42,363 nt of DNA from positions 1 to 42,363 of the forward strand of contig NZ_BAJW01000031.1 of the NCBI RefSeq assembly GCF_000613905.1, read 5' to 3'. The notes beneath the pieces were generated by a model. The model did not search any database. It saw nothing but the letters and a program-made list of their open reading frames with translations, and was not told where the DNA came from. How positions within the stretch are numbered: the stretch's first letter is position 1; each line of letters starts with the position of its first letter. The translations under genes were made by a program, and so were the position numbers. Positions 14,908-40,280 of this stretch are shown here, one piece after another. The DNA comes from Acetobacter persici JCM 25330 (GTDB taxonomy: Bacteria > Pseudomonadota > Alphaproteobacteria > Acetobacterales > Acetobacteraceae).

Positions 14908-14920
14908 GGATGGGTCAGCA

Positions 14921-15877
14921 TCATGCGCGGGCCCTTTCCTGCGAGGAGAAGAGCGCTACGATATCGGCCAGTGTCGTGAGCAGCAGGTAAGCTGCGCAGA
15001 AGATAATCGCGCAGGTTTGCACCAGCGGAATATCGCGCGAGGCCACGCTATCCACCATCAGGCTGGCAATGCCGGGATAATGAAAGACAGATTCCACAAT
15101 CACCACGCCGCCCAGCAGGTAGGACAGGCTGAGAGCGATAACGTTGAAGAGCGGTGCAATCACATTTGGCAAGACGTGACGCAGGATGATGAATGCTGGC
15201 GAGACGCCCTTGAGCATTGCCATTTCCACCCAGGAAGAACTCAGCACGTTCACCATGACGGCGCGCGTCATGCGGGCCATCTGCCCGACAATCACGCAGC
15301 CCAGTGTTGCCACTGGCATGGAAAAGGCGGCTAGAAACGAGCCAATGGAATGAATATCACTGATGCTGGCCAGTGCGGGCAACAAGTGCAGTTGCACGGC
15401 AAAAACCAGCACGGCGAGTGTCGCGATCAGAAATTCAGGCACCGACACCACACACAGTGTGAGCAGGGAGATCGTTCGGTCAAACAGCGTATTGCGAAAA
15501 ATGGCGGAAAGCGTGCCAAGTAGCAGGGCGGCAGGCACGGCAAACAATGTGGTGATACCTGCCAGAAGCAGAGAATGCAGCAGCCGATCATGTACCATGT
15601 TCAGCACGGGCTGATGGCTGACGAGAGAAGTGCCGAAATCGCCACTCAGGAATCCGCCTGCCCAACCGGCAAAACGCACCAGAACAGGCTGATCCAGCCG
15701 CAGGCTGTGGCGCAGGGAGGCGATGGCATCGGGTGTGGCGGCTTGCCCGAGCAAGGCTTCCGCCACGTCTCCCGGCAAGGCAGAAGTAATGAAAAAGACC
15801 GAGACAACGACGAATACGAGCGAGACAAGGGAGGCCCCGAGCCTGCGGGCAATGGCCTTGCCCAGTTGCGCTGTCAT
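14921..15877 (-). CDS. ABC importer permease (DppB-like)
   Basis: A 318-residue membrane protein. The N-terminal SLVFVVVSVFFITSALPGDV is the characteristic first helix and LPGD turn of DppB/OppB permeases. The EAA-like loop AMLKGVSPAFIILRHVLPN lies at about residues 220-240, followed by YLLGGVVIVESVFHYPGIAS, also diagnostic. The start at 15877 overlaps the stop of the binding-protein gene by four bases, so the two are translationally coupled. It pairs with the DppC-like gene. Confidence 0.9.
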   Translation of the reverse strand: MTAQLGKAIARRLGASLVSLVFVVVSVFFITSALPGDVAEALLGQAATPDAIASLRHSLRLDQPVLVRFAGWAGGFLSGDFGTSLVSHQPVLNMVHDRLLHSLLLAGITTLFAVPAALLLGTLSAIFRNTLFDRTISLLTLCVVSVPEFLIATLAVLVFAVQLHLLPALASISDIHSIGSFLAAFSMPVATLGCVIVGQMARMTRAVMVNVLSSSWVEMAMLKGVSPAFIILRHVLPNVIAPLFNVIALSLSYLLGGVVIVESVFHYPGIASLMVDSVASRDIPLVQTCAIIFCAAYLLLTTLADIVALFSSQERARA

Positions 15878-17483
15878 GGCTGACCTCCGGCAGAACCCGT
15901 AGGCGTAGGGGCGTCATCAACCCAGATGCTGCGGGCAAAGTTGTAACCCATCAACTGGCCGCCCTGATGTGGATGCAGTCCCTTGATGCGTGTGTGGTAG
16001 CCATCCAGACTGGTGATGAAGGTCGGAATGCCTATTCCGGCATCGGTATGGATAAGCGTTTGCATATCATCATACAGGGCATGGCGTTTTGCCTCATTCG
16101 GCTCGCTCCGGCTGAGGGCTAGAAGCTCGTCAAATTGGGGGTTGTGCCAGTGTGATTCATTCCACGGCGCTGCAGAGGCAAAGCTGAGCGCAAAGGTCAT
16201 GTCAGCCGAGGCGCGGGGGTTGACGTTGCCAAACCCCATCGGGAAGCGCATCCAGGACTGGCTCCAGTAGCCGTCGGCTGGCATGCGTCGCACGTCCAGT
16301 TGAAGACCGATGCGGCGTGCATCATTCTGGAGAAGAACCGCCATTTCGACCGACCCGTTGGCAGCGGGAGAGCAGATGAGCGGTGGCAGGCTCTGGTTTA
16401 AAAACCCACTGCGTTTGAAAAGGAATTTGGCTTGGTCAGGATCATATTGGGTTTGAGGTAAATGCGCGTTGAAGTCCCGGTGTTCCGGGGGGAGGGGTTG
16501 GTCATTGCCCATGCGGCAAAAGCGAGATAGATAGAATCACGCATCTGATTGCGGTTAAACAGCAGCTTCATGGCGCGGATAAAATCTGGATTTTGCCCAG
16601 GCCCAACATCCTGCCGTATGGCAAGATTGGTGTAGGTGCCGGTTGGGCTTTCCATCACAGCAAGGCCACGTTCACGCACAAGGGCTACAAGGCGCGGGTC
16701 CACTGCTGCAATAATATCGACATCGCCTGAGAGCAAGGCGTTGTGCCGCGCCATGTCATCACTGATGGAAATCAGCTCCAGACTGTCCACCCACACGCCA
16801 CCGGGGTTCCAGAAATTTGTGTTGCGCAAGGCGAGAGATTGCACGCCGGCCTGAAAGGCCGCGCAGACAAAAGGACCTGTGCCATTGGCTTTATCAAATT
16901 GCGTTGTGCCATTACGGATAATGGCAAAATTTATCAGACCGAGAATAGAAGGGAATGCGATATTGGCCGCTTCCAGCTCAATGATGACGCGGAGTGGTCC
17001 ATCCTCACGTACAGAATGCATGGCCATGGCCTGATAATGCACTTGCGAGCCGACAGTTGGATCCTTGTGGCGGAGGATGGAATAGACAACATCGGCTGAA
17101 GTCAGGGGAGCGCCATCATGAAAACAGACGCCTTTGCGCAACTGGATATGCCATGTCTTGAAGTCTGTGCTTTCAAGCAGTTCTGCAAGAGCGGGACGGG
17201 GTGTCAGGGTTTCATCAAGCGTGACGAGCCCGTCGTAAAACATGTTGCCACGTATGTAATCCGTCGCCATGGACTGGCGCGCGGGGTCCAGCGTGTCACT
17301 CAGGGAGCCGGTTGTAGATGCTGCCCGGACATGCCCCCCCACGCGTGGAGTGGGGCCGGTCTGGCCGTAAACGGAAGCACTGGATGCTGCTGCAAACGCT
17401 GTGTGCGACCATGACCGCGCAGCACAAAAGCTGGCGGTGGCCAGCCGTGCGCCCTGTTTCATCATGTCACGTCGGTTCAGCAT
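15874..17483 (-). pseudogene. ABC importer substrate-binding protein (family 5), frameshifted
   Basis: An extracytoplasmic solute-binding protein of the DppA/OppA type, about 536 residues in two frames. The N-terminus LNRRDMMKQGARLATASFCA is a twin-arginine signal. The ATG at 17483 with GGAG eight bases upstream is preferred over the GTG at 17489. TDFKTWHIQLRKGVCFHDGA then LTSADVVYSI is the family signature. The frame breaks at about 16512-16514: IYLAFAA should continue MGNDQPLPPEHRDFN, one base being absent. As written, the first frame stops at 16398 and the protein would lack its C-terminal third. The ligand is unknown; the neighbouring dehydrogenase suggests an opine or amino-acid derivative. 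Confidence 0.85.
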
Positions 17484-26794: not shown

Positions 26795-27441
26795 TGTCGT
26801 CAGTTAAGGGCTGAGCGTGTGCTGTGAGGGTTGTACTTTCCTGCTGTCTGTGGCTGACTGTTTTCCCGGCTTTGAGGGAGACAGACAGATGCGGCGCTAC
26901 GGTTTACGAGACGATCAGTGGGAGCGGATAAAAGACCTTCTTCCGAGTCGGGAGGGGCATGTTGGCGGCACGGCCGCGGATAACCGTCTGTTCGTGGAAG
27001 CCGTGCTGTATCGCTATCGCTATCGCGCAGGCATCCCGTGGCGTGACCTTCCTGCCCGCTTCGGGGACTGGAAAAACGTGCACCGGCGCCTGCGCCGCTG
27101 GTGTGAAAGTGGTGTCATCGAAAGGATATTTCGTTATCTGGCTGCGGATCATGACAATGAATACATGATGATTGACAGCACCATTGTCCGGGCGCATCAG
27201 CATAGTGCCGGAGCGCTCAAAAAAGGGGCACGGATCAGGCCATCGGACGATCCCGAGGCGGACTGACCACAAAGATCCATGCCATCTGCGATGCCCTGAG
27301 CAATCCGGTGGAGATCGACATCACGCCGGGACAGGATGCGGATATCAACAGGGCGGAACCGATGCTCGAAAACATCGATCCGGATGCCTTCCTCGCAGCC
27401 GTGCAGTTCGCCACAATCATCATCCTGCTTAACTGACGACA
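26795..27441 (+). mobile_element. IS5-family (IS427-group) element with internal deletion
   Basis: The ends carry matching inverted repeats: TGTCGTCAGTTAAG at 26795-26808, and its reverse complement CTTAACTGACGACA at 27428-27441. Orf A starts at 26889 (MRRYGLRDDQWERIKDLLPS) and contains the first DDE aspartate in MMIDSTIVRAHQHSAGAL. A run of six A and four G at 27219-27228 is the expected minus-one slippage site: shifting gives KKRGTDQAIGRSRGGLTTKI and orf B. Orf B then jumps from IDPDAFLA directly to AVQFATIIILLN and stops at 27436. In complete relatives about 70 residues, with the second Asp and the Glu, lie between. So the transposase is dead, probably through deletion between short repeats. 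Confidence 0.8.
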
Positions 27442-27450
27442 TCGAATAAC

Positions 27451-27473
27451 TGTCAGGTGCGAGACGTCATTGG
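27451..27473. repeat. Solo terminal repeat resembling the IS481 element at 40873
   Basis: TGTCAGGTGCGAGACGTCAT continuing TGG differs from the 24-bp inverted repeat of the IS481 element (40873-40896) by one missing base and one substitution. It lies exactly where the IS5-type transposase reading is cut off, and its mate is not seen nearby. It is probably the scar of an older related insertion that truncated the IS5-type gene and was later partly deleted. Only nine bases separate it from the IS427-type element. Confidence 0.6.
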
Positions 27474-28264
27474 CGGCGGCATCTGTCGTCTTCCATTTGC
27501 GGATCAGCCGGAATTTCCGATCGATGGAGATGTGCGACTTGTAACAAAAAAACGGGATGGCCAGATCCGTTGCGGGCATACTCCCGTCTTCCTGTCGCTT
27601 CGCTTTCGTGAATTTCAGGGTCCATCGCGCATGACGATCTTTATAGGACAGCTTTGCCGGTTTATCCTGCCAGTCCTGTGGGATCCGTCCTTCCCGCAGA
27701 TCAGTCTTTTCATCGCTGGTATTGCGCTGCTTCGGAGCCGCTACCAGCGTGGCATCCAGGATTTGGCCTGACATCGGCAGATAACCACCGTTACGCAGGG
27801 TCGCATCAAAGCGGTTGAACAAAATATCAATTGCTCCCGCCTGTGTCAGACGTTCCCTGAACAGCCAGATGGTTTTGGCATCAGGCACACGGTCCGACAG
27901 CCCCAGACCAAGAAAGCGCATGAAGGACAGGCGGTCGTTGATCAGGTATTCTGTCCGTTCGTCGGACAGAGTGTTCAGCGTCTGGATGACCAGGATTTTG
28001 AACATCAGCACCGGATCAAACGGCGGACGACCGTCTTTACTGCCGTCTGCATAGGCCAGCGCTTTATCCAGATCAGGACGAAATATTTCGAAATTCACAG
28101 TCCGGGAAAAGGCTTCGAGCTGATCACCAAGCCCGCTCAAACGAGAAAGCCGCTCTTCAGCATCAAAGAAACCGGGCTGTTTCATATCGTCATTCCTCTA
28201 ACCAGAACCGGAAAAATGGAATCACAGCGCAGGCCTCAATACCAAGGGGTTTTTCGAACCCTCC
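27474..28264 (-). mobile_element. Truncated IS5-family element, 5' part only
   Basis: Read on the minus strand from the ATG at 28185, MKQPGFFDAEERLSRLSGLG begins a typical IS5-type transposase. FDPVLMFKILVIQTLNTLSD and SGQILDATLVAAPKQRNT contain family motifs, including the first catalytic Asp in LDATLV. The true sequence ends around RKWKTTDAAAND, about 235 residues in, where it meets the IS481-like repeat. Frames continuing to 27235 merely read through the other IS backwards. The outer end at 28242-28264 (reading inward ggagggttcgaaaaacccct) is the 5' inverted repeat. The partner end and the rest of the catalytic core are gone. Confidence 0.85.
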
Positions 28265-28419: not shown

Positions 28420-29019
28420 ATGAAAATAAGCACGGGAATGAGCGTTGTCATGACAAGAAAATTACCGGGATCATCACGTAAAGCGCCTGTCCAGAACAAT
28501 ACTGTTGGAAGCGACAAACTTTATATTGTTTCTTCTTCGCATCTGGCTTCGCCCGGTTATGAAGACGTCAGTGCTTTTGAGTTTGCGTTGACAGTTATCA
28601 ATAACGCGTTCCAGCGCTGGATGACCCGGGCGAGCGCCGTAGCTGGCCTGCCGGAATTATCTGCGCTGGATATTTTGGTGCTGCATAGTATCAACCATCG
28701 GGATCGTGAGAAGAGTATCGCAGATCTCATGTTTACCCTTAATCTTTCTGAGCGGCATTACTTGAATTACGCCATGAAGAAGCTTGATGATCTGGGGCTA
28801 ATCACCCGTCATCGCAGGGGTAAGGAAGCATATCTTAAAGTAACCCCAAAAGGGAGCGATTATTGCGCTGAATATGCACGTGTGCGGTCAGCATGTCTGC
28901 TGGATTTGTTGCCTGCCGATCTAGAACCAGGAGGGGTTGCGTTGGGTGAAGTGGCGCGCGCCATGCGTGTCTTAACCGGGTTCTATGAACAAGCTGCACG
29001 GTCTGCTTCTTCTCTTTGA
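28420..29019 (+). CDS. MarR-family transcriptional regulator
   Basis: A 199-residue protein with a variable N-terminal extension of about 50 residues, then a winged helix-turn-helix: LPELSALDILVLHSINHRDR, FTLNLSERHYLNYAMKKLDD, then LGLITRHRRGKEAYLKVTPK as the wing. This is the MarR order, with dimerisation helices at both ends. Starts at 28420 or 28438 are both possible. Its 3' end overlaps the 3' end of the carrier-like gene on the opposite strand by 37 bases, tying it physically to the pxp operon. It probably controls the divergent pxp/receptor promoters, as is usual for MarR proteins sensing small acids; that is inference. Confidence 0.8.
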   Translation: MKISTGMSVVMTRKLPGSSRKAPVQNNTVGSDKLYIVSSSHLASPGYEDVSAFEFALTVINNAFQRWMTRASAVAGLPELSALDILVLHSINHRDREKSIADLMFTLNLSERHYLNYAMKKLDDLGLITRHRRGKEAYLKVTPKGSDYCAEYARVRSACLLDLLPADLEPGGVALGEVARAMRVLTGFYEQAARSASSL

Positions 29020-29414
29020 GATTCGTTGGCGGAGCTTAAAATGTGTCCTAAAAAGTCATGATACCCTACGATAATATTTGATGGGTGTGTAACCAGACAA
29101 AGTCTGCCCGTTTCGGGAGCGATAACCGGGAGCATCAGAAGGTCCACAGCAACAAAAGCGACAATGTCCCCGCGGTTTACGAGATCGCCATCCGTGATTC
29201 CGGTGCGTAGATGAAATATACCCATTTCCGGTGAAAGAAGCGGAATAGGAGCTGGTTGTGCGGCGGCGGGACGGGCAGGTGTGCTATCTGCCGCATTCTC
29301 TGGCAGGAGGCGAAGAAAAACCCTTTTTGATCCTGATTTTTCTTCAAACGTTTGCACACAATATTTTCGCATAAGTGCGACAAGTGTCCTAAGATCGTCT
29401 GGTGAGCGCATCAT
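28983..29414 (-). CDS. Biotin-carrier-like protein lacking the biotinylation lysine
   Basis: A 143-residue protein shaped like a BCCP: an N-terminal helix region (LRTLVALMRKYCVQTFEE), a Pro/Ala linker (about 42-58), then a biotinyl/lipoyl-type beta-barrel starting LLSPEMGIFHLR. At the place where a true carrier has E(A/V)MK, this one reads FVAVDLLMLPV: aligned on the shared G-D-x-V-x-x-G, the lysine is replaced by Leu92, and Glu and Met are also lost. It therefore cannot be biotinylated in the normal way. It overlaps the biotin carboxylase stop by four bases and is the last gene of the pxp operon. A structural or regulatory role, or a decaying duplicate, are both possible; the frame is intact, which argues against simple decay. 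Confidence 0.75.
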   Translation of the reverse strand: MMRSPDDLRTLVALMRKYCVQTFEEKSGSKRVFLRLLPENAADSTPARPAAAQPAPIPLLSPEMGIFHLRTGITDGDLVNRGDIVAFVAVDLLMLPVIAPETGRLCLVTHPSNIIVGYHDFLGHILSSANESQREEADRAACS

Positions 29415-30766
29415 GGGTTTTTCAGCTCCAAAAGGCGTTCAAGATAATGCACGTCTACCCCTCCCTTAATAAGATCCGGGTGATTCATCAGGCGAGCATG
29501 CAAGGGAATGGTTGTGCTGATGCCATCAATTCGGGTTTCTGACAGAGCCGCCCGCATGCGGGCAAAAGCATCCTCTCTATTGTGCCCGTGCACGATAATC
29601 TTGGCGATGAGGGAATCATAATGCGCTGGCACGCGATAATTATCGTAAAGATGTGTGTCCACTCTTACGCCCGGACCACCGGGAGGGGTCCATTGACTTA
29701 CAACTCCTGGAGAGGGAGCAAAACTATCCGGATTTTCCGCCGTAATACGGCATTCGATCGCATGTCCGTCAGTCCGGATATCCGTCTGAGTGAAGGGAAG
29801 GGGCTGTCCCATGGAAACACGAATCTGGGTTTCAACAATATCTATCCCGGTTGTCATTTCTGTTACCGGATGTTCGACCTGAAGTCGTGTGTTCATTTCG
29901 ATGAAAAAGAAGCTTCCATTTTCATAAAGAAACTCGAATGTACCAGCACCAACATATCCCATATTCCGACAGGCAGCGGCACAACGCTCTCCGAGTTGAG
30001 TAATGACACTGGGGGAGATGTCAGGTGCAGGAGCTTCTTCAAGGAGTTTCTGGTGACGGCGCTGTACTGAGCAGTCACGTGCACCGAGCCAGACAGCATT
30101 TCCGTATGTATCTGCTATAATTTGTATTTCAATATGGCGTGGATGGCACAAAAAATGTTCCATATAGACGGCTGGATTGCCGAACGCGCGTCGTGCTTCT
30201 TCCCGAGCACCCTCGACAGCCACATCAAGGGCTGCGGGTTCGGAAACAACGCGCATCCCACGTCCCCCACCTCCTGCGGCTGCTTTGATAATGACGGGGT
30301 ATCCTATCTGAGCCGCGATGGTCTCAACCTCACTCCGATTTTCTGGAAGCGCACCTTCTGTTCCGGGCAGGCAGGGTACGCCCGAGCGTGTCATGTGGCG
30401 CCTTGCTGCGATCTTGTCCCCCATTTCTCTCATGACCGAGGGGGCCGGACCGATGAAGACAAGGCCGGCGTCAGTAACAGCTTCAGCGAAGTTCGCATTT
30501 TCAGATAGAAAGCCGTAACCCGGATGGATCGCGTCTGCCCCCAGGAGTTTTGCAGCACGCAGAATACGTGAACTATCAAGATAGCTCGCAGACGCTGGAG
30601 CTGGTCCGATACAGACAGAGCGCGCCATAAGCCTCAGATGTGCGAGATTGGCGTCTGCTTCTGAATAAATGCCCAAAGCTTCAAGTCCGAGCAGACGACA
30701 TGCTCGGGCAATGCGTAGGGCAATTTCTCCGCGATTAGCGATCAGGACGCGTCGGAATTCAGGCAT
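29411..30766 (-). CDS. accC: Biotin carboxylase subunit (AccC-like)
   Basis: About 451 residues from the ATG at 30766 (PEFRRVLIANRGEIALRIAR); an in-frame ATG four codons earlier is possible. The ATP-grasp glycine loop is IIKAAAGGGGRGMRVVSEP, the carboxylation-site residues lie in FIEMNTRLQVEHPVTEMTTG, and PGYGFLSENANFAEA and RDCSVQRRHQKLLEEAPAP are also diagnostic. It carboxylates the biotin on a carrier protein using ATP and bicarbonate. The gene lies between the true carrier protein and the carrier-like gene, with overlaps, inside the 5-oxoprolinase operon rather than with fatty-acid genes. So it is probably a pathway-specific paralogue. Confidence 0.9.
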   Translation of the reverse strand: MPEFRRVLIANRGEIALRIARACRLLGLEALGIYSEADANLAHLRLMARSVCIGPAPASASYLDSSRILRAAKLLGADAIHPGYGFLSENANFAEAVTDAGLVFIGPAPSVMREMGDKIAARRHMTRSGVPCLPGTEGALPENRSEVETIAAQIGYPVIIKAAAGGGGRGMRVVSEPAALDVAVEGAREEARRAFGNPAVYMEHFLCHPRHIEIQIIADTYGNAVWLGARDCSVQRRHQKLLEEAPAPDISPSVITQLGERCAAACRNMGYVGAGTFEFLYENGSFFFIEMNTRLQVEHPVTEMTTGIDIVETQIRVSMGQPLPFTQTDIRTDGHAIECRITAENPDSFAPSPGVVSQWTPPGGPGVRVDTHLYDNYRVPAHYDSLIAKIIVHGHNREDAFARMRAALSETRIDGISTTIPLHARLMNHPDLIKGGVDVHYLERLLELKNP

Positions 30767-31178
30767 CAAGCGTCTCAATCATAAAAAGAGGTGTGCCCGG
30801 CTCCACGCTCTGACCGTCTGCCTGAAGTATAGAGAGGATACGGCATGGAAAGTCTGCATCAATCCGCGAGAGTGTTTTCATTACCTCCAGAATGTAGAGT
30901 GTTTCTCCAGCCTTCACAGTGTCGCCCGGCTGTACAAAGGGTGGTTCATCTGGGGAGGGAGCAGTATAAAACTGACCATGCATTGTTGCTGTGATCGTAT
31001 GTTGAGCATTCCCAGATTCAGAAGCAGGCGTAACGACCTCAGGTTTCTGTGCGTGAGGAGAGTGAGCATCATTGGTCAGATGGATGATAGTATTGCCCTC
31101 TTCAAAATGAAGCTCTGCAAGACCTAATGTACGCATCTGCTCCATGAGAGATTCAAGTTTTGAGAAATCTGTTGTCAT
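30759..31178 (-). CDS. accB: Biotin carboxyl carrier protein
   Basis: A 139-residue protein. The biotinylation motif is YILEVMKTLSRI, with Lys101 as the attachment site. It is preceded by FVQPGDTVKAGETL and followed by LQADGQSVEPGTPLFMIE, the second half of the barrel. The N-terminal helix (LESLMEQMRTLGLAELHFEE) and linker are of the AccB type, and EVMK is common in carriers near LamB/YcsF proteins. It overlaps pxpA by four bases and the carboxylase gene by several, so stoichiometric expression is likely. It should deliver carboxyl groups to a partner transferase, for which PxpC is the only candidate in the operon; that is inferred. Confidence 0.9.
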   Translation of the reverse strand: MTTDFSKLESLMEQMRTLGLAELHFEEGNTIIHLTNDAHSPHAQKPEVVTPASESGNAQHTITATMHGQFYTAPSPDEPPFVQPGDTVKAGETLYILEVMKTLSRIDADFPCRILSILQADGQSVEPGTPLFMIETLDA

Positions 31179-31954
31179 GAAGCATGACCCTGCTTAGCTG
31201 GCGCGCGGACAAGTATGCCCTCAGCTTCAAGTGTGTTCCGAAGGTGACGGGCGAGCGTAACCGCCTCAGCACTGTCACCGTGAACGCAGATTGTATCGAT
31301 TGTCGTAGCCAGAAGCCGTCCGTTCAGTGTTTCAATCGCGCCAGCATGAATCATACGCAATGCCCGCTCTGCCACAGCTTGGGGATCATGAAGGACCGCG
31401 CCGGGTTGGGCGCGTGGGAGCAGATGTCCATCTTCATCATAGCCACGATCGGCAAAAATTTCAGAACGGATGGTCATGCCACGGTTTCTTCCCAGCCGTT
31501 CCAACGCACTATGGGCGATGGCCACGACTGGCAGGGTGGGCTCGACGGCATACACTCCTTTAAGCACAGCCTGTGCAATCACAGGATCATGCTCTGTCAG
31601 ATTAGCGAGTGCTCCGTGGGCTTTAAGATATGTGATAGCATGACCACTATAGGTTGCCATCGCACAGGCCGCGCCTAACTGGTAGGCAACGATGCGCTCG
31701 ATTTCCAGAGGTGTCATCGGCAGGGGACGACGGCCAAACCCCCACAAATCCGGAAAGCCGGGATGCGCCCCGACCGCTACGTTATTTTCATGAGCAAGCG
31801 CAAAGGTTTTTGCCATGACCTGCGGGTCCCCTCCGTGGAAACCACAGGCCACATTTGCTGATGTCACGATGCCAAGCAATGCGGCATCATCACCAATGCT
31901 ATAATGACCAAAGCTTTCGCCAAGATCGGCATTAAGATCGATTGTTTTTGTCAT
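31175..31954 (-). CDS. pxpA: 5-oxoprolinase subunit A (LamB/YcsF family)
   Basis: A 259-residue protein. IDLNADLGESFGHYSIGDDA at the N-terminus and TSANVACGFHGGDPQVMAKT are the defining LamB/YcsF motifs, followed by VAVGAHPGFPDLWGFGRRPL and YLKAHGALAN. PxpA is the hydrolytic part of the PxpABC ATP-dependent 5-oxoprolinase that opens pyroglutamate to glutamate. It overlaps pxpC by four bases and the carrier gene by four. Length is normal for the family (about 250). Confidence 0.92.
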   Translation of the reverse strand: MTKTIDLNADLGESFGHYSIGDDAALLGIVTSANVACGFHGGDPQVMAKTFALAHENNVAVGAHPGFPDLWGFGRRPLPMTPLEIERIVAYQLGAACAMATYSGHAITYLKAHGALANLTEHDPVIAQAVLKGVYAVEPTLPVVAIAHSALERLGRNRGMTIRSEIFADRGYDEDGHLLPRAQPGAVLHDPQAVAERALRMIHAGAIETLNGRLLATTIDTICVHGDSAEAVTLARHLRNTLEAEGILVRAPAKQGHAS

Positions 31955-32931
31955 TTTTTCTGGTTCCAGGGGATAAGAGAGCCGCGCAGTTCAGAAAGCT
32001 TCATCATATTATCCTGAAATTGCCGGACTGCGTCCCGCTGCCGTTGCACCGCAGCATCTATATCAATCTCGTGAAAAAATACGGATGCGCCAATGGGTGC
32101 CTGTGCGAGAAGGCGGAGATCACTTTCGATCACGGTCGCAATCTTAGGATAACCGCCCATAGTGTTGGCATCAGCAAGCTGAATGATTGGTTGCCCTGAA
32201 GGGGGGATCTGCACAGTGCCGGGCATAATGCCGTGTGAAAACAACTCCCTGTCAGAAGCACGTCTGAGCGGGTCGCCTTCCAGACGATACCCTGCGCGGT
32301 TGGCTTGGGAAGTAATGCGCCATGGCTGGGAAAAAAAACGTGCCCTGCTTTCGGGCGTGAAGTCATGATATTCTGCCGCAGCCAGAGCATGCACAGTCAC
32401 AGATCCTCGCTCGGGAAGAAGTGGAGGGCAGGTTAGCCCATAACCACCAGTCGGCAGGGAGAGTGTGCGTGGGCCGCACGGTATATGGTCATTCCGTTGA
32501 AGCCCACGACCATGGTAGCCGCCAAGCGCGGCCTTGAGGTCGGTAGCCCGTGCGCCGAATACGATTGGCACATCCAGCCCACCTTCAAGGCAAATATAAA
32601 CTCGGCAGCCCTTTTCCAGAGCGCCGCATGTCAGGATCTGCCCTGCTTTCGCTGTGATTGCCCAATTGGCTGGTAGGGAAAGGTTGTCCAGAGATGCATT
32701 GCACTGCGCCCCGGTGATAGAGAAGCTCCTTTCTTCCAGAAAGCGTATTCGGAAAGGAAAGAAAGCGACTTCGATTCCTGCTGCATCAGCAGGATTGCCA
32801 AGGAGGACGTTTCCCAGGGCCAGTGCAGCGCGATCCATTGCGCCGCCGCAGGAAACGCCGAAGGCCATTGCCTGAGGACGCCCAAAATCCTGCACGGTAT
32901 TAAGAGCGGTGCTCGTAAGAATTTCTATCAT
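31951..32931 (-). CDS. pxpC: 5-oxoprolinase subunit C (KipA/AHS2, biotin-dependent carboxyltransferase family)
   Basis: A 326-residue protein. ALNTVQDFGRPQAMAFGVSC, then GGAMDRAALALGNVLLGNPA and AAGIEVAF, are the AHS2 opening. CRVYICLEGGLDVPIVFGAR and TSQANRAGYRLEGDPLRR are later signatures. AHS2 is also the C-terminal half of the allophanate-type domain of urea amidolyase and is named biotin-dependent carboxyltransferase. In PxpABC it works with PxpB to phosphorylate 5-oxoproline. Here it sits with a biotin carboxylase and carrier, so a carboxyl-transfer role deserves consideration. It overlaps pxpB and pxpA by four bases each. Confidence 0.92.
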   Translation of the reverse strand: MIEILTSTALNTVQDFGRPQAMAFGVSCGGAMDRAALALGNVLLGNPADAAGIEVAFFPFRIRFLEERSFSITGAQCNASLDNLSLPANWAITAKAGQILTCGALEKGCRVYICLEGGLDVPIVFGARATDLKAALGGYHGRGLQRNDHIPCGPRTLSLPTGGYGLTCPPLLPERGSVTVHALAAAEYHDFTPESRARFFSQPWRITSQANRAGYRLEGDPLRRASDRELFSHGIMPGTVQIPPSGQPIIQLADANTMGGYPKIATVIESDLRLLAQAPIGASVFFHEIDIDAAVQRQRDAVRQFQDNMMKLSELRGSLIPWNQKK

Positions 32932-33575
32932 CGGGCATTCACAAAGCGTACACGGTCCCCGATCTCGAGATAACAGGGTGGGTTTCTGTTATGATCGAAT
33001 AACGCAATATCGGTGTGTCCGAGTTGGTACCAACCTGACGGTGCGGTGCATGGCATAACCCCTGCATTGCCGCCACCAATAATGACGGAACCTTTCTCAA
33101 CCGCCATGCGCGGCACCTGACGGCGCGGAATGGCAAGCTGTGGGTCAAGGCCCGATAGATAGACAAAACCCGGCATAGCCCCTACGGCAGCGACCCGATA
33201 GGATGCGTTACTATGAAGAGAAATAATATCGGTAATCGTAAGATTGCAGTAATAAGCAATGGCTTTCAGATCTTCACTTGATTCCGAATCGTACGTGACA
33301 GGAATACTGATCATGCGTCCATCAGGTTCATCTGAAGAGGCCTGATACCATGCATCTTCCAGCCATATCCGGGCTTCACGATGATCATGCATCACGGAGT
33401 CAAACACCATCAAAAGGTTGTTCACGCCCGGAATAGCCTGCCTTACGCCTGTATGGCGAGCGAGAGCATGTGCGGCATTAATGACGCGCGCCTGAATACC
33501 GGCCTCGAATACAGTAGAAGAAGCGTCCAGCAGGAAGGCATTCTCTCCTGCGTAGCTGATTCGCATATTTGGCAC
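32928..33575 (-). CDS. pxpB: 5-oxoprolinase subunit B (KipI/AHS1 family)
   Basis: A 215-residue protein. The C-terminal region has VGAMPGFVYLSGLDPQLAIP, RRQVPRMAVEKGSVIIGGGN and SGWYQLGHTDIALFD, the core signature of AHS1/KipI proteins. VRQAIPGVNNLLMVFD is the conserved N-terminal strand pair. It pairs with PxpC in the ATP-dependent 5-oxoprolinase. The start is a GTG at 33575, with an in-frame ATG three codons on; no strong ribosome site is visible. First gene of the operon, divergent from the TonB receptor. Confidence 0.92.
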   Translation of the reverse strand: MPNMRISYAGENAFLLDASSTVFEAGIQARVINAAHALARHTGVRQAIPGVNNLLMVFDSVMHDHREARIWLEDAWYQASSDEPDGRMISIPVTYDSESSEDLKAIAYYCNLTITDIISLHSNASYRVAAVGAMPGFVYLSGLDPQLAIPRRQVPRMAVEKGSVIIGGGNAGVMPCTAPSGWYQLGHTDIALFDHNRNPPCYLEIGDRVRFVNAR

Positions 33576-33832
33576 GTTTCACTTTCAAGACGTTAGTACG
33601 GAAACAGCTTATCGAAACTCTGTTCAGTGTCTCGCCAACTGTCTTCATGTTGAAATTATACACGTCTATTTGCAAGGGAGAAACGCGCAAAATTCGAAAT
33701 TAAGCGAGTTTCTCATGTTTTCATTGATTACGTTTTCGAATCATGTGTAATTTCTATTCGAATCGAACACTATCGTGGCAGCGTCGCAATGCCTGAACCA
33801 CGCAGGCGGCAACAATCTGGGGGAAACGGAAC
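33576..33832. promoter_or_regulatory. Divergent pxpB / TonB receptor promoter region with phased TTCGAA sites
   Basis: This 257-bp region holds the promoters of both divergent units. Three TTCGAA palindromes, within A/T-rich flanks, lie at 33693-33698, 33735-33740 and 33757-33762. Their spacings, 42 and 22 bases, are close to four and two helical turns, so they would face the same side of the DNA. This is a plausible operator array for the MarR-type protein at 28420, but that pairing is inferred. Confidence 0.5.
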
Positions 33833-36646
33833 GTGTCTGACGCATATAGTCGGCCCAAACGCCGCAAACGTATTTCCATTCGTTCCTGGGGAACTTTTTC
33901 TGCAGCGCTGGCTGGACTGGCGACTTCCGGCGAGGTACATGCGGCAGACAAAACGACGACAACATCGGAAACATTGACGGTAGTCGGCTCTGCGCTGTCT
34001 CAGCGCAACAATGCCAGCGCCAACCCTGTTCAGACCATTACGTCCCGGCAAATACAGAGGACGGCTTCCACAACTATTGGCGAATATCTTCAGCGTTTAC
34101 CAAGCATTGGCTCTTCTGGTACAACCAATACCCAGACAAGTGGTGGATTGGGTATGTCCTGCACTGATATCCGTAATCTCGGTGCCAGCCGCGTACTTGT
34201 GCTGATTGATGGCAAACGACAGGTTCAGTCTGCCAGTTCCTCCCAGAGCTGTGTTGATTTGAATACAATCCCCGTTGATCTGGTGGATAGTATTGAAATT
34301 CTTAAAGATGGCGGCTCGGAGTTGTATGGAGCAGATGCGGTTTCCGGCGTTATCAATATCAAACTGAAGCATAATCTGACGACAGGAGGTTTCACCGTTC
34401 GGGGTGGAATCACGGATCAGGGAGACGGCCAGACTGGTAAAATCTCCGGTCACAAGGGCTTTAATTTTGATCAGGGGCGCGGCAATATCACGCTGTTTGG
34501 GTCCTATGAAACAATTAGTCCGATCATGCAGCGTAATCGGGCATGGGCACGAGACCCTCAGGTGACTAATCCTGTCAGCGGTAAGCCTGCCTATGGCTCA
34601 TCAATTTCCACAGCAACGCGCGTTATGGACCCGGCTGGGCGTTTTAATCTCGTGCAGTCTCCGAATGGTGATTTCACTCCGTTTTCATCCGCCGACAACT
34701 ATAATTATGGCCGTGATGGTAATTTGACGAATTATCTTCAGACAGCCACGCTTCATGGTCAGGCGCATTATGACGTGACGGACTGGTTCAAGCCTTATGC
34801 GTCGATTTTCTATTCTCACAAGACAACGCAGCAGACTCAGGCCCCTTCACCGGTGACTGGGAGTATTTATCCATCCACATTGCCGAGTAGCTTTATTCTG
34901 CCGTCCGGAAACCCTTACAATATGTGGGGGCAAGATGTGAATATGTATAAGCGCATGGATGCTTTTGGGGACCGTCAGTTCGGGCAGGCCAGTGACACAT
35001 GGCAGGTGAATGCTGGTGCAAAGGGGCATATTTTTGGCGGCTGGAATTATGATGCCTCTATGGCTTACGGAGCCAGCGATATGACCCTGCGGGCGCAGAA
35101 TGTTGTGAATTATAATCACATGATGCAGGAAATGGGTGTGCGCCAGCTTACGCCTGGCGACGCACATAGTGCAGTGGTTTATGATTCGTCAGTCTGTGCA
35201 GCATCCAGCGGCTGCGTGTTGCAAAACCCGTTTGCGCCATGGTCACAAAAGGCTGTTGATTACGCATCTGCGACCATTTCCAATCATACATCCTATCAGT
35301 TGCGTGATTTCAATTTTCGCGTGCATAATAACCATCTGGTGCATATGCCATACGCTCATGGTGGGGATGTGGGGCTGGCATTTGGTGTCGAGCACCGGAG
35401 TGAGCAACTCAGCTTCACACCTGATCCCTTGAGCAACGCTGGTGATATTGCTGCGGCAAACGGAAGTGCCTCAGCGACGGGTGGCGGCTTTAATACAACA
35501 GAAGTCTATGGTGAACTGAACGTTCCGTTCCTGCGTAATGCGTTTATGGCGAAAGATCTCTCTGTAGATGCACAAGGGCGGTGGTCGCGCTACAATACAT
35601 TTGGAAGTACGCAGATATGGAAAACAGGTATCAACTGGGCTCCTGTTGATGACATCCGCTTTCGGGCTACGCTAGGGACATCATTCCGGCAGCCTAATGT
35701 TTATGAACTTTATGGTGGCCGAACGTTATCCTACCAGTCAGCGCATGATCCCTGTGCGCAGGTATCGTCCTATGGTGCTCTGAGCGGGAATGTTGCAGCG
35801 AATTGTGCGCTGCAGGGGATCAATACGGCTAGCTTTGTGGATGCTAACGCGGGTAAAATTCCTACGATTTCAGGTGGCAACCCAAATTTGCAGCCGGAAA
35901 CAGGGCGTACATGGACGGTTGGAACCGTCATTACTCCCCGTTTTGCCCCTCATCTCAACGTTTCCGTAGAATACTGGCATTATACAATCAACCACACAAT
36001 CAGTGCGCTGTTGCCGCAATACGTGCTTGACGAGTGTTATACAGGCGCCGATCCATCCTATTGCAGCGACGTTTCCCAGCGTACGACAGGGAATCAGATC
36101 TCGACCGTGCAAACGCTTTATCAAAACCTCGGAACACTCCGAGAAGACGGTCTGGATTTTGATCTGAGTTATAATATTCATCTCTTCGGGAAAAACTACC
36201 TTTCTCTGTCAAATAATTATCAGCAGGTTTTTGGTTATAATCAGCAGAACGAGCCAAATGGAAAATTTTATAATTATACAGACCGTATGTTCAACCAGAC
36301 TGGTTCCGGTATCCCGCGTATTCGTGACTATGCGACCGCAACCTGGAGCCATGGTAATGTCGCTCTTACCTATATGATGAGTTACACGAGCGGCATGGTA
36401 TGGAACAACGGTACAACGGATCTGACAGCGAAAACTGCCGGACAATATCGCACGCCGGGCATATTTGCTCATGACCTGACCCTGACATACACACTGCCAC
36501 ACTGGACGATCGAGGTCGGCGTCAACAACCTGCTTGATAAAAAACCGCCTTTTGTTCTGGATTCCTATTTTAATACGGCAGCGGCTCTTTATGGTGAAGA
36601 AATGATGGGGCGCTATGTTTTTGTTCAGGTAGGCTCAGTCTTCTGA
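33833..36646 (+). CDS. TonB-dependent outer-membrane receptor
   Basis: A 937-residue intact receptor from a GTG with GGGGGAAACGGA upstream. The basic N-terminus is followed by a hydrophobic signal segment and an AxA cleavage site near GEVHAADK. The TonB-box-like region SETLTVVGSALSQ (about 43-55) precedes the plug, which has TIGEYLQRLPSIG, then NLGASRVLVLIDGKRQV, and VDSIEILKDGGSELYGADAV, then SGVINI. The barrel ends LYGEEMMGRYVFVQVGSVF with a terminal Phe. Two cysteine pairs in extracellular-loop-like segments (YDSSVCAASSGCVLQN; VLDECYTGADPSYCSDV) may form disulfides. It is the first gene of a plus-strand unit with DUF969, DUF979 and DUF2891, and probably brings their substrate across the outer membrane. 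Confidence 0.9.
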   Translation: MSDAYSRPKRRKRISIRSWGTFSAALAGLATSGEVHAADKTTTTSETLTVVGSALSQRNNASANPVQTITSRQIQRTASTTIGEYLQRLPSIGSSGTTNTQTSGGLGMSCTDIRNLGASRVLVLIDGKRQVQSASSSQSCVDLNTIPVDLVDSIEILKDGGSELYGADAVSGVINIKLKHNLTTGGFTVRGGITDQGDGQTGKISGHKGFNFDQGRGNITLFGSYETISPIMQRNRAWARDPQVTNPVSGKPAYGSSISTATRVMDPAGRFNLVQSPNGDFTPFSSADNYNYGRDGNLTNYLQTATLHGQAHYDVTDWFKPYASIFYSHKTTQQTQAPSPVTGSIYPSTLPSSFILPSGNPYNMWGQDVNMYKRMDAFGDRQFGQASDTWQVNAGAKGHIFGGWNYDASMAYGASDMTLRAQNVVNYNHMMQEMGVRQLTPGDAHSAVVYDSSVCAASSGCVLQNPFAPWSQKAVDYASATISNHTSYQLRDFNFRVHNNHLVHMPYAHGGDVGLAFGVEHRSEQLSFTPDPLSNAGDIAAANGSASATGGGFNTTEVYGELNVPFLRNAFMAKDLSVDAQGRWSRYNTFGSTQIWKTGINWAPVDDIRFRATLGTSFRQPNVYELYGGRTLSYQSAHDPCAQVSSYGALSGNVAANCALQGINTASFVDANAGKIPTISGGNPNLQPETGRTWTVGTVITPRFAPHLNVSVEYWHYTINHTISALLPQYVLDECYTGADPSYCSDVSQRTTGNQISTVQTLYQNLGTLREDGLDFDLSYNIHLFGKNYLSLSNNYQQVFGYNQQNEPNGKFYNYTDRMFNQTGSGIPRIRDYATATWSHGNVALTYMMSYTSGMVWNNGTTDLTAKTAGQYRTPGIFAHDLTLTYTLPHWTIEVGVNNLLDKKPPFVLDSYFNTAAALYGEEMMGRYVFVQVGSVF

Positions 36647-36694
36647 GCTTCTGGACGTTCTCTTCGGACATTAGATAAAAGGAAAACGGGCATT

Positions 36695-37372
36695 ATGGTT
36701 GATCACGGTTCCTGGATGACACTGCTGGGTCTTGGAGTGATCATCGGCGGCGTGATCTTACGCATGAATATCCTGTTTGTCGTGGTGGCGAGTTCACTGA
36801 TAACGCCGCTTCTAGCTGGTAAAACACCCTATGAGGCAGTTGCGATGCTAGGGCATTATGCAACCTCAGCCCGCTATATCAGCGTTATGTGGACAATTCT
36901 TCCGCTTATCGGAGTGTTGGAATGGGCGGGTCTTGCGGATGCTGCCCGGGGTCTGGTCTCCCGCCTGACCCTTAAGACGCCGGGGCATGTTTTACAGGGA
37001 TATTTTATTCTACGTCAGATTTCCGCGGCGTTAGGACTGACGTCTCTCGGAGGGCAGGTTCAGATGGTGCGACCACTGATTGCTCCAATGGCAGAGGAGG
37101 CCGGACGGCATATAACAAACGGGACCCTGACGGAAGAAGAGAGAGAGCGGTTGCGCGCTGCGGCGGCCGCTACGGACAATGTTGCTGGCTTTTTCGGCGA
37201 GGATATTTTTCTGGCTGTCGCCTCAATTCTGCTGATGCAGGCCGTGCTTGAGGCAAATAATGTTCAGGTCTTGCCCTGGCAGCTTTCTGTTTGGGCTATC
37301 CCGTCAGCAGCCATGGCTCTGGCTGTTTCATGGCTATGTTTCCGAAAGATTGATCGTAGTCTGAGGCGCTGA
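36695..37372 (+). CDS. DUF969 family membrane protein
   Basis: A 225-residue inner-membrane protein with several hydrophobic helices. LGLGVIIGGVILRMNILFVV opens it, and LPLIGVLEWAGLADAARGLV and then ISAALGLTSLGGQVQMVRPL, followed by IAPMAEEAG, are the DUF969 motifs. DUF969 and DUF979 proteins nearly always occur as a pair and are often next to pyroglutamyl-peptidase or 5-oxoprolinase genes, so a two-component 5-oxoproline or related permease is suspected in the family. AAAGGA precedes the ATG. It lies four bases before the DUF979 gene. Confidence 0.85.
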   Translation: MVDHGSWMTLLGLGVIIGGVILRMNILFVVVASSLITPLLAGKTPYEAVAMLGHYATSARYISVMWTILPLIGVLEWAGLADAARGLVSRLTLKTPGHVLQGYFILRQISAALGLTSLGGQVQMVRPLIAPMAEEAGRHITNGTLTEEERERLRAAAAATDNVAGFFGEDIFLAVASILLMQAVLEANNVQVLPWQLSVWAIPSAAMALAVSWLCFRKIDRSLRR

Positions 37373-37376
37373 CAGC

Positions 37377-38369
37377 ATGATAGGGATGGAAATAATCTAT
37401 GCGGCGCTGGGGCTGTTCTTTTTTTACACGGCATACAGCGCGCTTCGGCGTGGAGCAGGGCAGGGTGCTGCACTGGCTGGTTTTTGGGGACTGTACGGCC
37501 TGCACTTTATCGCCGGTTCAGTCTTTAATGATTTTTCTAACGGCCTGATCATTATTGGCATGACTTTTCTGGCGCTGTGCATGCGCAGCCGCTCCTTGAT
37601 GCCTACAGTTGTTGAGACGCTACCATTGAGCGGTTCCGTGCTTGCAGGAGGAGAAGATGGGGCGAAAAAGAGTATGGTGCGCCTTCTGCTGCCTTTGCTG
37701 GTTGTTCCACTTGTGGCGGTGCTCTTTGTTCTTGCCGCTCCATGGATGCACTGGCACGGACGTTCGTTAATTGACCCCAAGCGAGCTAACCAGATCGGTT
37801 ATGTACTGGCAACGTTGGCAGGCCTCGTGGTTGCATGGTGGCGATTGCGTCCTCCTGCCGGGCTTCCTTTTGCATCGGGAAGTGCTCTGGTCTGTCGGGT
37901 GGGCTGGCCACTGGTTCTGCCACAGATTCTGGCGACCCTTGGAGGCGTCTATATGGCTGCTGGCGTTAACCAACAGCTTGGGGTTTTACTGACAATCATT
38001 CTGCCACCCGGGAACGAGCTGGCGGCGGTGCTGGGATATACAACAGGCATGATGCTGGTGTCAGCGCTGGTTGGAAACGCTTTCGCAGCGTTCCCTATTC
38101 TTTTTGGTGCGCTGGGCCTACCGGTTCTTGTCCAGAGTTTTGGTCTGTCTCCGGCGCCTGTCGCTGCCATTGGCATGTTATGCGGTTTTAGTGGTACGCT
38201 TCTGACCCCCATGGCGGTCAATTTCAATATCGTTCCGGTTTCTCTGCTTGGGCTTCAGGATCGTTTTGCCGTGATCCGCGCTCAAATTCCGGCAGCATTT
38301 TTCGTGTTCGCAGGGAATACTTTGCTGCTTTATGTGCTCACATTCTTTGAAGGACATTCATCGCCATGA
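37377..38369 (+). CDS. DUF979 family membrane protein
   Basis: A 330-residue inner-membrane protein with about nine to ten hydrophobic segments. Recognised from GLYGLHFIAGSVFNDFSNGL, APWMHWHGRSLIDPKRANQI and GVNQQLGVLLTIILPPGNEL, the conserved DUF979 stretches, and the near-terminal CGFSGTLLTPMAVNFNIVPV. Paired with DUF969, from which it is separated by only four bases, and overlapping the DUF2891 gene by four bases, it is probably the second half of a transporter. The substrate is inferred from the adjacent 5-oxoprolinase operon. Confidence 0.87.
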   Translation: MIGMEIIYAALGLFFFYTAYSALRRGAGQGAALAGFWGLYGLHFIAGSVFNDFSNGLIIIGMTFLALCMRSRSLMPTVVETLPLSGSVLAGGEDGAKKSMVRLLLPLLVVPLVAVLFVLAAPWMHWHGRSLIDPKRANQIGYVLATLAGLVVAWWRLRPPAGLPFASGSALVCRVGWPLVLPQILATLGGVYMAAGVNQQLGVLLTIILPPGNELAAVLGYTTGMMLVSALVGNAFAAFPILFGALGLPVLVQSFGLSPAPVAAIGMLCGFSGTLLTPMAVNFNIVPVSLLGLQDRFAVIRAQIPAAFFVFAGNTLLLYVLTFFEGHSSP

Positions 38370-39367
38370 CGTTCGACCAAACGATGGCTGACCGTTTTGC
38401 ACGGATCGCACTGGGCCATGTTAGCCGTCCATTTCCTTATTTTCCTAGCCACTGCATACTGAATGAGGAAGATTGGCCATTACCGCAGGAGAGCCATCCT
38501 ATATTTTATGGCAGTTTTGACTGGCATTCCTGTGTTCATGGTTATTGGATGCTTGCAACCCTTATAAAAAGTTTTCCAGGTATTGAGGCGAAAGACGATA
38601 TTATCGCTTTGTTTCGCAAGAGTGTTACCACAAAAAATGTTGAGATTGAACAGTCTTATTTTGAAAATCCTTTGCGCCGTAGCTTCGAACGTCCCTACGG
38701 GTGGGGCTGGCTGCTTAAGCTCGTCACGGAACTCCATGCGCATCCTTATCTTTCCGAATTCGCGGATGTTCTAGCCCCATTGGCAGAAAAAATAGCAGTT
38801 CTTTATCGGGATTTTCTGCCATTGGCGGCCTATCCCATCCGCGTGGGTACGCATTTTAATAGTGCTTTCAGTCTGCGGCTTACACTTGATTATGCAGAGA
38901 CTTTTCAGGATGAAGAACTGGCTCGACTGGTACGTGATCGTGCCAATGACTGGTTTGGGAACGATGAAGCATGTCAGGCATGGGAACCGTGCGGAGATGA
39001 ATTCCTGTCACCCGCGTTGATGGAAGCCGCTTTAATGGCGCGAGTGCTGGATAGCACTGCATTTCAGGACTGGTTTGGTCGTTTTCTTCCGCTAATTATG
39101 GAGGGAAAACCCGTAACACTTTTCACACCCGCGATGGTCAGCACGCGTGCCGACGGCAAGATCGCGCATCTTGATGGGCTTAATCTCAGCCGTGTCTGGT
39201 GTTGGCGTGAGATTCTGGCTGCTCTTCGTCCTGATGAGGCTTTCAAGGCACTGATTGAACGGTCATGTAATGCACATCTTGATGCGAGTTTGCCGCATAT
39301 CGTTGGTGATTACATGGGTGAGCACTGGCTCGCTACATTTGCTGTACTGGCTCTTCGTGGCGCTTGA
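38366..39367 (+). CDS. DUF2891 family protein
   Basis: A 333-residue soluble protein. Conserved segments are HPIFYGSFDWHSCVHGYWML, FERPYGWGWLLKLVTELHAH and PIRVGTHFNSAFSLRLTLDY, then DGDEFLSP-like ACQAWEPCGDEFLSPALMEA and HLDGLNLSRVWCWREILAAL. The alpha-helical pattern with aromatic and acidic residues resembles an (alpha/alpha)-toroid fold, as in glycoside or uronate-processing enzymes, but function is unknown. ATGA overlap with the DUF979 gene shows tight coupling. Its presence in a pyroglutamate-type transport unit suggests an enzyme acting on the imported compound. Confidence 0.85.
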   Translation: MTFDQTMADRFARIALGHVSRPFPYFPSHCILNEEDWPLPQESHPIFYGSFDWHSCVHGYWMLATLIKSFPGIEAKDDIIALFRKSVTTKNVEIEQSYFENPLRRSFERPYGWGWLLKLVTELHAHPYLSEFADVLAPLAEKIAVLYRDFLPLAAYPIRVGTHFNSAFSLRLTLDYAETFQDEELARLVRDRANDWFGNDEACQAWEPCGDEFLSPALMEAALMARVLDSTAFQDWFGRFLPLIMEGKPVTLFTPAMVSTRADGKIAHLDGLNLSRVWCWREILAALRPDEAFKALIERSCNAHLDASLPHIVGDYMGEHWLATFAVLALRGA

Positions 39368-39758: not shown

Positions 39759-40280
39759 GTAAGCATCCCGAGAGAGCCGCGAGCGTAATCAGGCTTCGAT
39801 GGTCTTATTGCTCTGGTGAAGGGTTTTCCAGTGCCATGGCAGGAGTTCATGGAGACGTAGATTTGGCATATCGTTGATACGGGCGAGGACATTTGCGAGC
39901 CATGCTTTGGGATCGACAAGGTTCAGACGGGCGGTGACGATCAGGGAATACATGGCAACAGTGCGTTCTCCGCCCCGGTCTGACCGGGCGAATAACTAGG
40001 GGCTTTTCTGCCGAGGGCTATCCCACCGAGCGCACGCTCTGCGGCGTTATTTGTGAGACAGATGCATCCATCATGTAGAAACCATGTGAACATGTCGGAC
40101 CGTCTGAGAAAATAGCTCATGGCCTGTGAAATGGGATTTTTTGACGACATGCATTGGCACGTGTCACGCATCTACATGAACAGGTCCTCTACTATGGGAG
40201 TACTTCTTTCCTGACGGACCACGAGCCGATGCTGGGCTGGGGTACCGTTTATCACACGTTCAGTCTCGAAGATGGCGTCG
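39759..40280 (-). pseudogene. IS66-family transposase (TnpC) 3' remnant
   Basis: The minus strand from about 40280 reads WIDAIFETERVINGTPAQHR, then LVVRQERSTPIVEDLFM, a TAG, then MRDTCQCMSSKNPISQAM, and FLHDGCICLTNNAAERALGG followed by IALGRKAP. A 1-base frameshift near 39990-40000 follows, after which LFARSDRGGERTVAMYSLIV and LRLHELLPWHW complete the IS66 TnpC C-terminus, with the stop at 39789. NNAAERAL carries the catalytic Glu region. GTAAGCATCCCG at 39759-39770 matches the usual IS66 terminal GTAAGC. The N-terminal two thirds are missing, replaced at about 40280 by Fic sequence. Stop and frameshift make it dead. Confidence 0.8.

Follow-up and report, generated by a model that had tools for sequence, protein, structure and literature searches.

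A 42,363-nucleotide contig of Acetobacter persici JCM 25330 (NZ_BAJW01000031.1; "the window" below means this whole stretch of DNA) contains an island in which the genes for the three PxpABC 5-oxoprolinase subunits are joined to genes for a biotin carboxyl carrier protein (BCCP), a biotin carboxylase (BC) and a carrier-like protein, here called CAR, with a TonB-dependent receptor, DUF969, DUF979 and DUF2891 encoded divergently. The main new point of our analysis is CAR. Judged by its sequence, CAR is a full-length BCCP homologue that has no biotinyl lysine and carries a conserved signature of its own, like the BADC subunits of plants. We interpret the island as a unit for the uptake and catabolism of 5-oxoproline with a biotin-dependent ring-opening enzyme, and put the probability of this reading at about one in two. 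The 5-oxoproline interpretation given in the original prediction for this DNA is, as a whole, partly supported.

A carrier homologue without the biotinyl lysine

In the alignment, the biotinyl-lysine position is occupied by Lys in all 80 BCCPs and in none of the 78 CARs, a count that leaves out 7 of the 87 BCCP-class frames (75 bits or less) and in which each frame went to whichever of the two class profiles it matched better, so that a lysine-bearing CAR could in principle be counted as a BCCP. A fused protein in locus L130, first matched as CAR, was taken off the CAR seeds by hand and then fell into the BCCP class. Around the lost lysine the CARs have a signature of their own, with Pro at +4 in 77/78, Leu at +1 in 68/78 and Gly at -1 in 66/78. 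The 64 loci that are complete for the biotin genes each hold one CAR and one BCCP.

The likeness to BCCP extends over the whole protein. A profile built from 41 of the 78 CARs matched E. coli AccB (4hr7_B) at 2.2e-20 over positions 3-135 of 138, N-terminal element included. The AlphaFold2 model of CAR (pLDDT 89.8, pTM 0.59) has a helix-hairpin start and a biotinyl-type barrel, and its best Foldseek match was 1bdo (4.0e-05). CAR scored 17.8 bits against Pfam Biotin_lipoyl, below the 22.1-bit cut-off, and the window CAR matched no NCBIfam model; the general NCBIfam BCCP model matched 31 of the 41 profile members with E-values up to 0.001. CAR was not found as a separate named family in the libraries scanned, and public records label such proteins as BCCP subunit, biotin attachment protein, biotin/lipoyl-containing protein or hypothetical protein.

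In plants, according to the accessible part of PMC11926652, BADC is homologous to BCCP, has no biotinylation motif and aids the assembly of BC with BCCP; the authors there describe it as unique to the enzyme of plants. CAR resembles this subunit of the heteromeric acetyl-CoA carboxylase in being a full-length, motif-less BCCP homologue that stands beside BC and BCCP. It differs from plastid BADC in that it is bacterial and is genetically linked to pxpABC, not to acetyl-CoA carboxylase, and the likeness is known from sequence. The open-licence literature that we searched gave no report of a BADC-like protein in bacteria, although Niehaus et al. 2017 may mention one.

Conservation of the pxp-biotin-CAR unit

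The distribution of the unit was assessed in 80 loci, the best 80 of 430 confirmed candidates from a PxpC-alignment scan and thus selected by likeness to the window PxpC. All three of BCCP, BC and CAR are found in 64 of these loci. CAR is present in 75, and in 62 of the 75 another gene of the unit lies on its strand no more than 150 bp away. Five loci are without CAR, one of them being L116, whose contig ends just behind pxpC; with this sole exception, each locus with both BC and BCCP also has CAR. The original prediction had placed a biotin-dependent step in the pxp operon. The partnership of the biotin genes with pxp is indeed conserved.

The commonest gene order is BCCP-BC-PxpB-PxpC-CAR-PxpA. 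The window order, PxpB-C-A-BCCP-BC-CAR, was also seen in L101, in Pseudomonas sp. R5(2019) (L102), in a P. aeruginosa plasmid (L182) and in the genus genomes L214-L217, where the CAR of L215 is known as a frame and that of L217 was not checked. The plasmid unit has RraA, aminotransferase, MFS and OprD genes as neighbours. In the main clade of units, L181, L183, L184 and L185 are flanked by genes for a pyridoxal phosphate (PLP) aminotransferase, an SDR, RraA, NAC and an amino-acid ABC transporter, and L183 additionally by phosphoenolpyruvate (PEP) carboxylase and D-glycerate dehydrogenase genes. Two further arrangements were noted. In Enterobacterales, PxpBC and CAR can stand with no BC or BCCP nearby (L112, L115, L117, L130, L131, L132, L139, L146, L149, L162, L166). 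In Alphaproteobacteria, the order pxpA-BCCP-BC-pxpB-pxpC was found with no CAR and a very divergent PxpB (L062, L064, L067, L068, L070, L072, L074, L075, L077, L078, L084), BC being undetected in L084.

The island itself recurs, minus the TonB receptor, in L101, an uncultured Acetobacter contig, with 58-86% protein identity; L101 and L213 look like one contig. For the ten genes common to the window and L101, the ratio of nonsynonymous to synonymous substitution rates (dN/dS) is 0.044-0.214, with synonymous sites near saturation and the regulator pair read slightly beyond the stop of the L213 copy. The ten shared genes are under purifying selection, and this, together with the recurrence in L101, indicates that the gene set is more than a chance assembly. 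As to co-occurrence outside close strains, the full eleven-gene island was found in the window only (and without the receptor in L101/L213), whereas the pxp-biotin-CAR unit and the pairing of pxp with DUF969/979 do recur when taken separately.

The A. persici assembly holds three biotin-carboxylase genes, namely the housekeeping AccC on contig C227, the window gene and a second pxp-linked set on contig C233 (L012, G000:C233:65000-82000). The second set consists of CAR2-BC2-BCCP2, an SDR and PxpB2-C2-A2, and is broken, with a stop inside the BCCP2 frame and PxpA2 truncated at 184 residues; relatives of BCCP2 and PxpA2 are whole in two genus genomes. The window copy of the pxp-biotin-CAR unit is the intact one of the genome's two.

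Substrate and the DUF969/DUF979/DUF2891 genes

DUF979 was found in 35 of 349 phylum genomes, from which 13 loci, spread over families, were picked by hand. In 10 of the 13 a 5-oxoproline enzyme, of three unrelated kinds, adjoins DUF969/979: pxp genes in 6, a fused hydantoinase A/B-type (OPLAH-type) oxoprolinase in 2 and a pyroglutamyl peptidase in 2, with none seen in 3. DUF2891 adjoins DUF979 in 6 of the 13. In C. jejuni, the genes cj0552-4 encode DUF969, DUF979 and DUF2891 in the same order, and the mutant no longer uses 5-oxoproline as nitrogen source, as stated in the available portion of PMC12795558. That portion also suggests DUF969/979 as a 5-oxoproline transporter, on which it gives a preliminary C. 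jejuni growth test. The link of DUF969/979 to 5-oxoproline is thus already known and is not new here. The arrangement differs from C. jejuni in that the window trio is divergent from a pxp-biotin operon and has a TonB receptor in front. The neighbourhoods and the C. jejuni mutant make 5-oxoproline the likely substrate of the window unit, and on the same grounds the link to 5-oxoproline of the putative inner-membrane transporter in the original prediction is supported.

The idea that DUF969/979/2891 regularly accompany the biotin unit was rejected, as only L101 among the 80 loci has these genes. DUF2891 occurs in 23 of 150 Acetobacteraceae genomes; of 20 of its neighbourhoods read in addition to that of the window, one, L057, has DUF969/979, several of the contigs being short. 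The fold of DUF2891 matches C. jejuni Cj0554 (8ieu, 8iev; 43% identical). Besides Cj0554, only GH76-like helical toroids were matched, far below significance, and DUF2891 was dropped as an assignable enzyme since no function follows from such matches. We know of no activity for DUF2891. Hydantoinase/oxoprolinase-type genes lie directly downstream of the window-type units L215 and L217, at about 13160-16900, of which L215 13191-15311 was scanned.

Proposed chemistry of ring opening

The window encodes LamB_YcsF, CT_A_B and CT_C_D subunits together. It shares with the PxpABC 5-oxoprolinase of E. coli (ybgJKL), B. subtilis and C. glutamicum (pxpTABC) the same three subunits, a PxpC that groups with E. 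coli and the 5-oxoproline context. PxpA and PxpB pass their NCBIfam cut-offs (NF003814; TIGR00370), and PxpC reached 286.8 bits against the NF045499 PxpC equivalog, under its 500-bit cut-off. Unlike E. coli pxpBCA, beside which there are no biotin genes, the window operon has BC, BCCP and CAR joined to it by overlapping frames.

A second likeness is to urea carboxylase and urea amidolyase, which likewise combine BC and BCCP with a carboxyltransferase that is a homologue of PxpC/PxpB, and whose carboxylation-then-hydrolysis is the logic proposed here. PDB relatives of PxpB and PxpC occur in urea carboxylase (3va7, 5i8i). In the window, however, the subunits are separate, PxpA replaces the amidase-type allophanate hydrolase, CAR is extra and there is no specific phylogenetic link. 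The urea carboxylase model TIGR02712 (cut-off 1303.85 bits) was not passed, BC, PxpC and BCCP scoring 470.5, 134.2 and 25.2 bits as separate proteins. A single origin of biotin-linked PxpC was favoured by a quick tree and rejected once the plain PxpC of E. coli and Gammaproteobacteria had been added.

The mycobacterial PDB entry 9yx5 contains the biotin carboxylase AccA3 in one solved structure with matches to PxpB and PxpC, chains that bear the names allophanate hydrolase subunits 1 and 2; its sister entries are M. smegmatis carboxylase complexes. It differs from the window in that AccA3 is a fused housekeeping subunit and no CAR-like chain was among the matches. In NCBI records, PxpC-like proteins bear the name "biotin-dependent carboxyltransferase family protein". 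To the original prediction, carboxylation within a pxp operon had appeared to be undescribed. In the open-licence literature we found no paper on a biotin-dependent PxpABC (a mention in Niehaus et al. 2017 is possible), yet the NCBI carboxyltransferase naming and 9yx5 exist. Because BC keeps the positions that we take to be catalytic or ligand-binding, BCCP keeps its lysine, PxpB and PxpC are carboxyltransferase homologues and 9yx5 brings such chains together, carboxyl transfer to the lactam would be the simplest reading.

In the mechanism that we propose, DUF969/DUF979 would bring 5-oxoproline across the inner membrane, as the neighbourhoods and the published mutant suggest. BC, its parts being intact, would spend ATP to carboxylate the biotin on K101 of BCCP. 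PxpB/PxpC would then move the carboxyl group onto the 5-oxoproline lactam, so that the ring is activated by an N- (or O-) carboxy group, and PxpA would hydrolyse the activated ring to N-carboxyglutamate, which would yield glutamate and CO2. This would parallel urea carboxylase followed by allophanate hydrolase. CAR, which keeps an N-terminal element of the BC-binding type, may act like plant BADC and help BC-BCCP to come together with PxpB/C. Both arms are probably controlled by the winged-helix protein at the conserved promoter region that lies between them, and DUF2891 and the TonB receptor would be accessories without a settled role.

Alternative explanations

Several observations weigh against this mechanism, and many of them would suit a PxpABC that is an ATP-dependent 5-oxoprolinase of the E. 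coli/B. subtilis type, phosphorylating the lactam, with BC, BCCP and CAR as a carboxylase of their own that just happens to lie in the same operon. NCBIfam names the window BC an acetyl-CoA carboxylase subunit. The E. coli pxpABC operon is without a biotin subunit gene, and PxpBC is reported to hydrolyse ATP in the part of PMC8453981 that was accessible. In a careful PxpC tree (80 rows out of more available, midpoint root), the PxpC of CAR units (42 rows, 99/97) joins the plain PxpC of E. coli and Gammaproteobacteria (100/98) as their sister, and not urea carboxylase. In a less biased sample, PxpC-type matches were found in 49 of 190 class genomes. Forty PxpC loci, part of the listed matches and with fused urea carboxylase-type frames skipped, comprised 1 with CAR (L092), 13 with BC and/or BCCP but without CAR, and 26 with neither; plain pxp operons are thus common and need no other carboxyltransferase. 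Finally, 11 of the 75 CAR loci, all from Enterobacterales, have no BC and BCCP within reach. Ten such genomes were searched, and a single stand-alone BC-sized frame was present in 9 and one or two long fused BC proteins in all 10. Since these genomes hold mostly one stand-alone BC-sized frame, PxpBC and CAR can evidently be maintained where no BC is dedicated to them. On the other side, the unit has no second carboxyltransferase gene while PxpB/C are themselves of the carboxyltransferase fold, the gene overlaps and the joint retention in 64/80 loci argue for a single complex, and 9yx5 holds a biotin carboxylase with PxpB/C-like chains. We regard two unconnected enzymes in one operon as unlikely, if still a serious contender.

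The biotin-dependent enzyme could also act on a lactam other than 5-oxoproline itself. Candidates would be 4-substituted 5-oxoprolines, pyroglutamyl dipeptides and cyclic imino-acid derivatives, for instance, and DUF969/979 would then have been recruited for a relative of 5-oxoproline. The nearest main-clade units adjoin aminotransferase, RraA, SDR and amino-acid ABC transporter genes rather than DUF969/979, so the substrate may differ between clades, a further point against our main reading. These neighbours suggest a different, perhaps hydroxylated lactam, a product to which the PLP aminotransferase, RraA, SDR, D-glycerate dehydrogenase, PEP carboxylase and NAC-type regulator would be suited; relatives of the window receptor (59% identity) also stand beside proline racemase, in L247 with gamma-glutamyltranspeptidase as well. 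Yet none of those neighbour genes adjoins the window unit, elsewhere DUF969/979 are found next to 5-oxoproline enzymes of three kinds, and in the PxpA tree (made without the L012 PxpA, whose frame is broken) the window-type PxpA forms a clade of its own, apart from main-clade PxpA. The different neighbours and PxpA clade make other lactams likely for the main-clade units; for the window such a substrate is distinctly improbable. That CAR is a functionless, decaying BCCP duplicate has very little to recommend it. CAR does evolve faster than its neighbours, its dN/dS of 0.214 being the highest of the ten shared genes, and the window copy is divergent and without the thumb-like stretch, but CAR is kept in 75/80 loci, its signature includes the nearly invariant Pro at +4, and its dN/dS is far below 1.

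Returning to the biotin-dependent enzyme, one may tentatively go further, with the odds somewhat against us. CAR could be the bacterial counterpart of BADC, a conserved BCCP paralogue that never carries biotin, and the structural subunit of a widespread class of biotin-dependent, lactam-opening enzymes (BC-BCCP-CAR-PxpBC-PxpA), and plain PxpBC and the BC-less enterobacterial PxpBC and CAR sets might be biotin-dependent too, through housekeeping BC/BCCP, as 9yx5 hints.

Gene layout, receptor and regulator

An open reading frame check of the window found all island frames intact (Table 1). Both arms foreseen in the original prediction, namely pxpB-pxpC-pxpA running on by overlaps into the BCCP, BC and carrier-like genes and the divergent receptor, DUF969, DUF979 and DUF2891 genes, were confirmed by frames and Pfam. 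Four-base overlaps join PxpB/PxpC, PxpC/PxpA, PxpA/BCCP, BC/CAR and DUF979/DUF2891. The BCCP/BC overlap is 20 bases when counted from the listed TTG start of BC and smaller from an internal ATG. The predicted overlap of a MarR-type gene with the end of the operon holds (37 bases with CAR, convergent); the regulator, which is MarR-like, matches HTH_27 and reaches MarR_2 only below its Pfam cut-off. Transposase-type frames on both flanks suggest past mobility of the island.

Table 1. Features of the island and its flanks (positions in the window)
Feature	Position	Strand	Evidence or remark
PxpB (CT_C_D; carboxyltransferase subdomain C-D)	32928..33575	-	PF02682 196.3 bits; TIGR00370 157.7 bits, cut-off 145.55
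PxpC (CT_A_B; carboxyltransferase subdomain A-B)	31951..32931	-	PF02626 277.5 bits; E. coli YbgK structure 5dud 1.1e-70
PxpA (LamB_YcsF), proposed hydrolase	31175..31954	-	PF03746 308.4 bits; NF003814 349.4 bits, cut-off 226; PxpA tree
BCCP, biotinyl lysine K101 in EVMKT motif	30759..31178	-	PF00364 4.7e-14; K101 invariant in alignment
BC	29411..30778	-	three Pfam BC domains; 13/13 presumed catalytic/ligand positions kept
CAR, BCCP homologue without biotinyl lysine, BADC-like	28983..29414	-	profile match to E. coli AccB 4hr7_B; biotinyl-domain fold in model
Winged-helix regulator (HTH_27, MarR-like), convergent with CAR	28420..29019	+	PF13463 1.3e-16
Conserved element, divergent intergenic region, pxpB side	33644..33665	.	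22 bases, 95% identical to L101 pxpB-DUF969 gap, E 1.2e-6
Conserved element, divergent intergenic region, receptor side	33739..33769	.	31 bases, 90% identical to L101 gap, E 3e-7
TonB-dependent receptor, role here uncertain	33833..36646	+	PF00593 108.7 bits; PF07715 69.7 bits
DUF969, half of proposed 5-oxoproline importer	36695..37372	+	PF06149 215.6 bits; neighbourhood survey
DUF979, half of proposed 5-oxoproline importer	37377..38369	+	PF06166 236.1 bits; neighbourhood survey
DUF2891, helical protein, activity unknown	38366..39367	+	PF11199 415.1 bits; solved relative C. jejuni Cj0554
Transposase-type frame, IS4/5 type	26817-27266		one flank of island
Transposase-type frame, DUF772 type	27235-28185		one flank of island
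Transposase-type frame, IS66 type	39941-40171		other flank of island

The TonB receptor had been proposed as the outer-membrane route. The case for this is weak, as the receptor is absent from L101, the 3.70-Mb A. persici genome has 69 receptor matches, some of them fragments (about 0.2 expected per 12 kb by chance), and within the genus the receptor's closest relatives are on contigs other than those of pxp units. Relatives at 1e-100 or better were found in 20 of 49 genus genomes, its own included. A specific link of this receptor to pxp was unsupported, no pxp gene being seen when six neighbourhoods were inspected by eye. Next to pxp units, other receptors occur in L215, L217, L218, L219 and L012, and at a distance of a few kb in L122, L150, L155, L157, L164 and L178; because receptors adjoin or sit near so many pxp units, acetic-acid bacteria repeatedly show an outer-membrane partner. 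The divergent gap shares two elements with that of L101, so that the receptor stands downstream of a promoter region that is conserved and in line with DUF969/979/2891, and a role in 5-oxoproline uptake is possible. In L247 and L250, receptor relatives (59%) stand beside a proline racemase-family gene, of which that of L250 was scanned, and in L247 near a gamma-glutamyltranspeptidase. Relatives of the HTH_27-type regulator occur beside pxp or DUF969/979 genes in L057, L082, L101, L213, L215, L217 and L224.

Implications

If the biotin-dependent reading is true, a biotin-dependent route would be added to the breakdown of 5-oxoproline or a related lactam. It would explain the carboxyltransferase look of PxpB/PxpC and make the question of the PxpABC mechanism directly testable. 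A dead carrier copy that serves as a structural subunit, described as plant-only, would then exist in bacteria as well.

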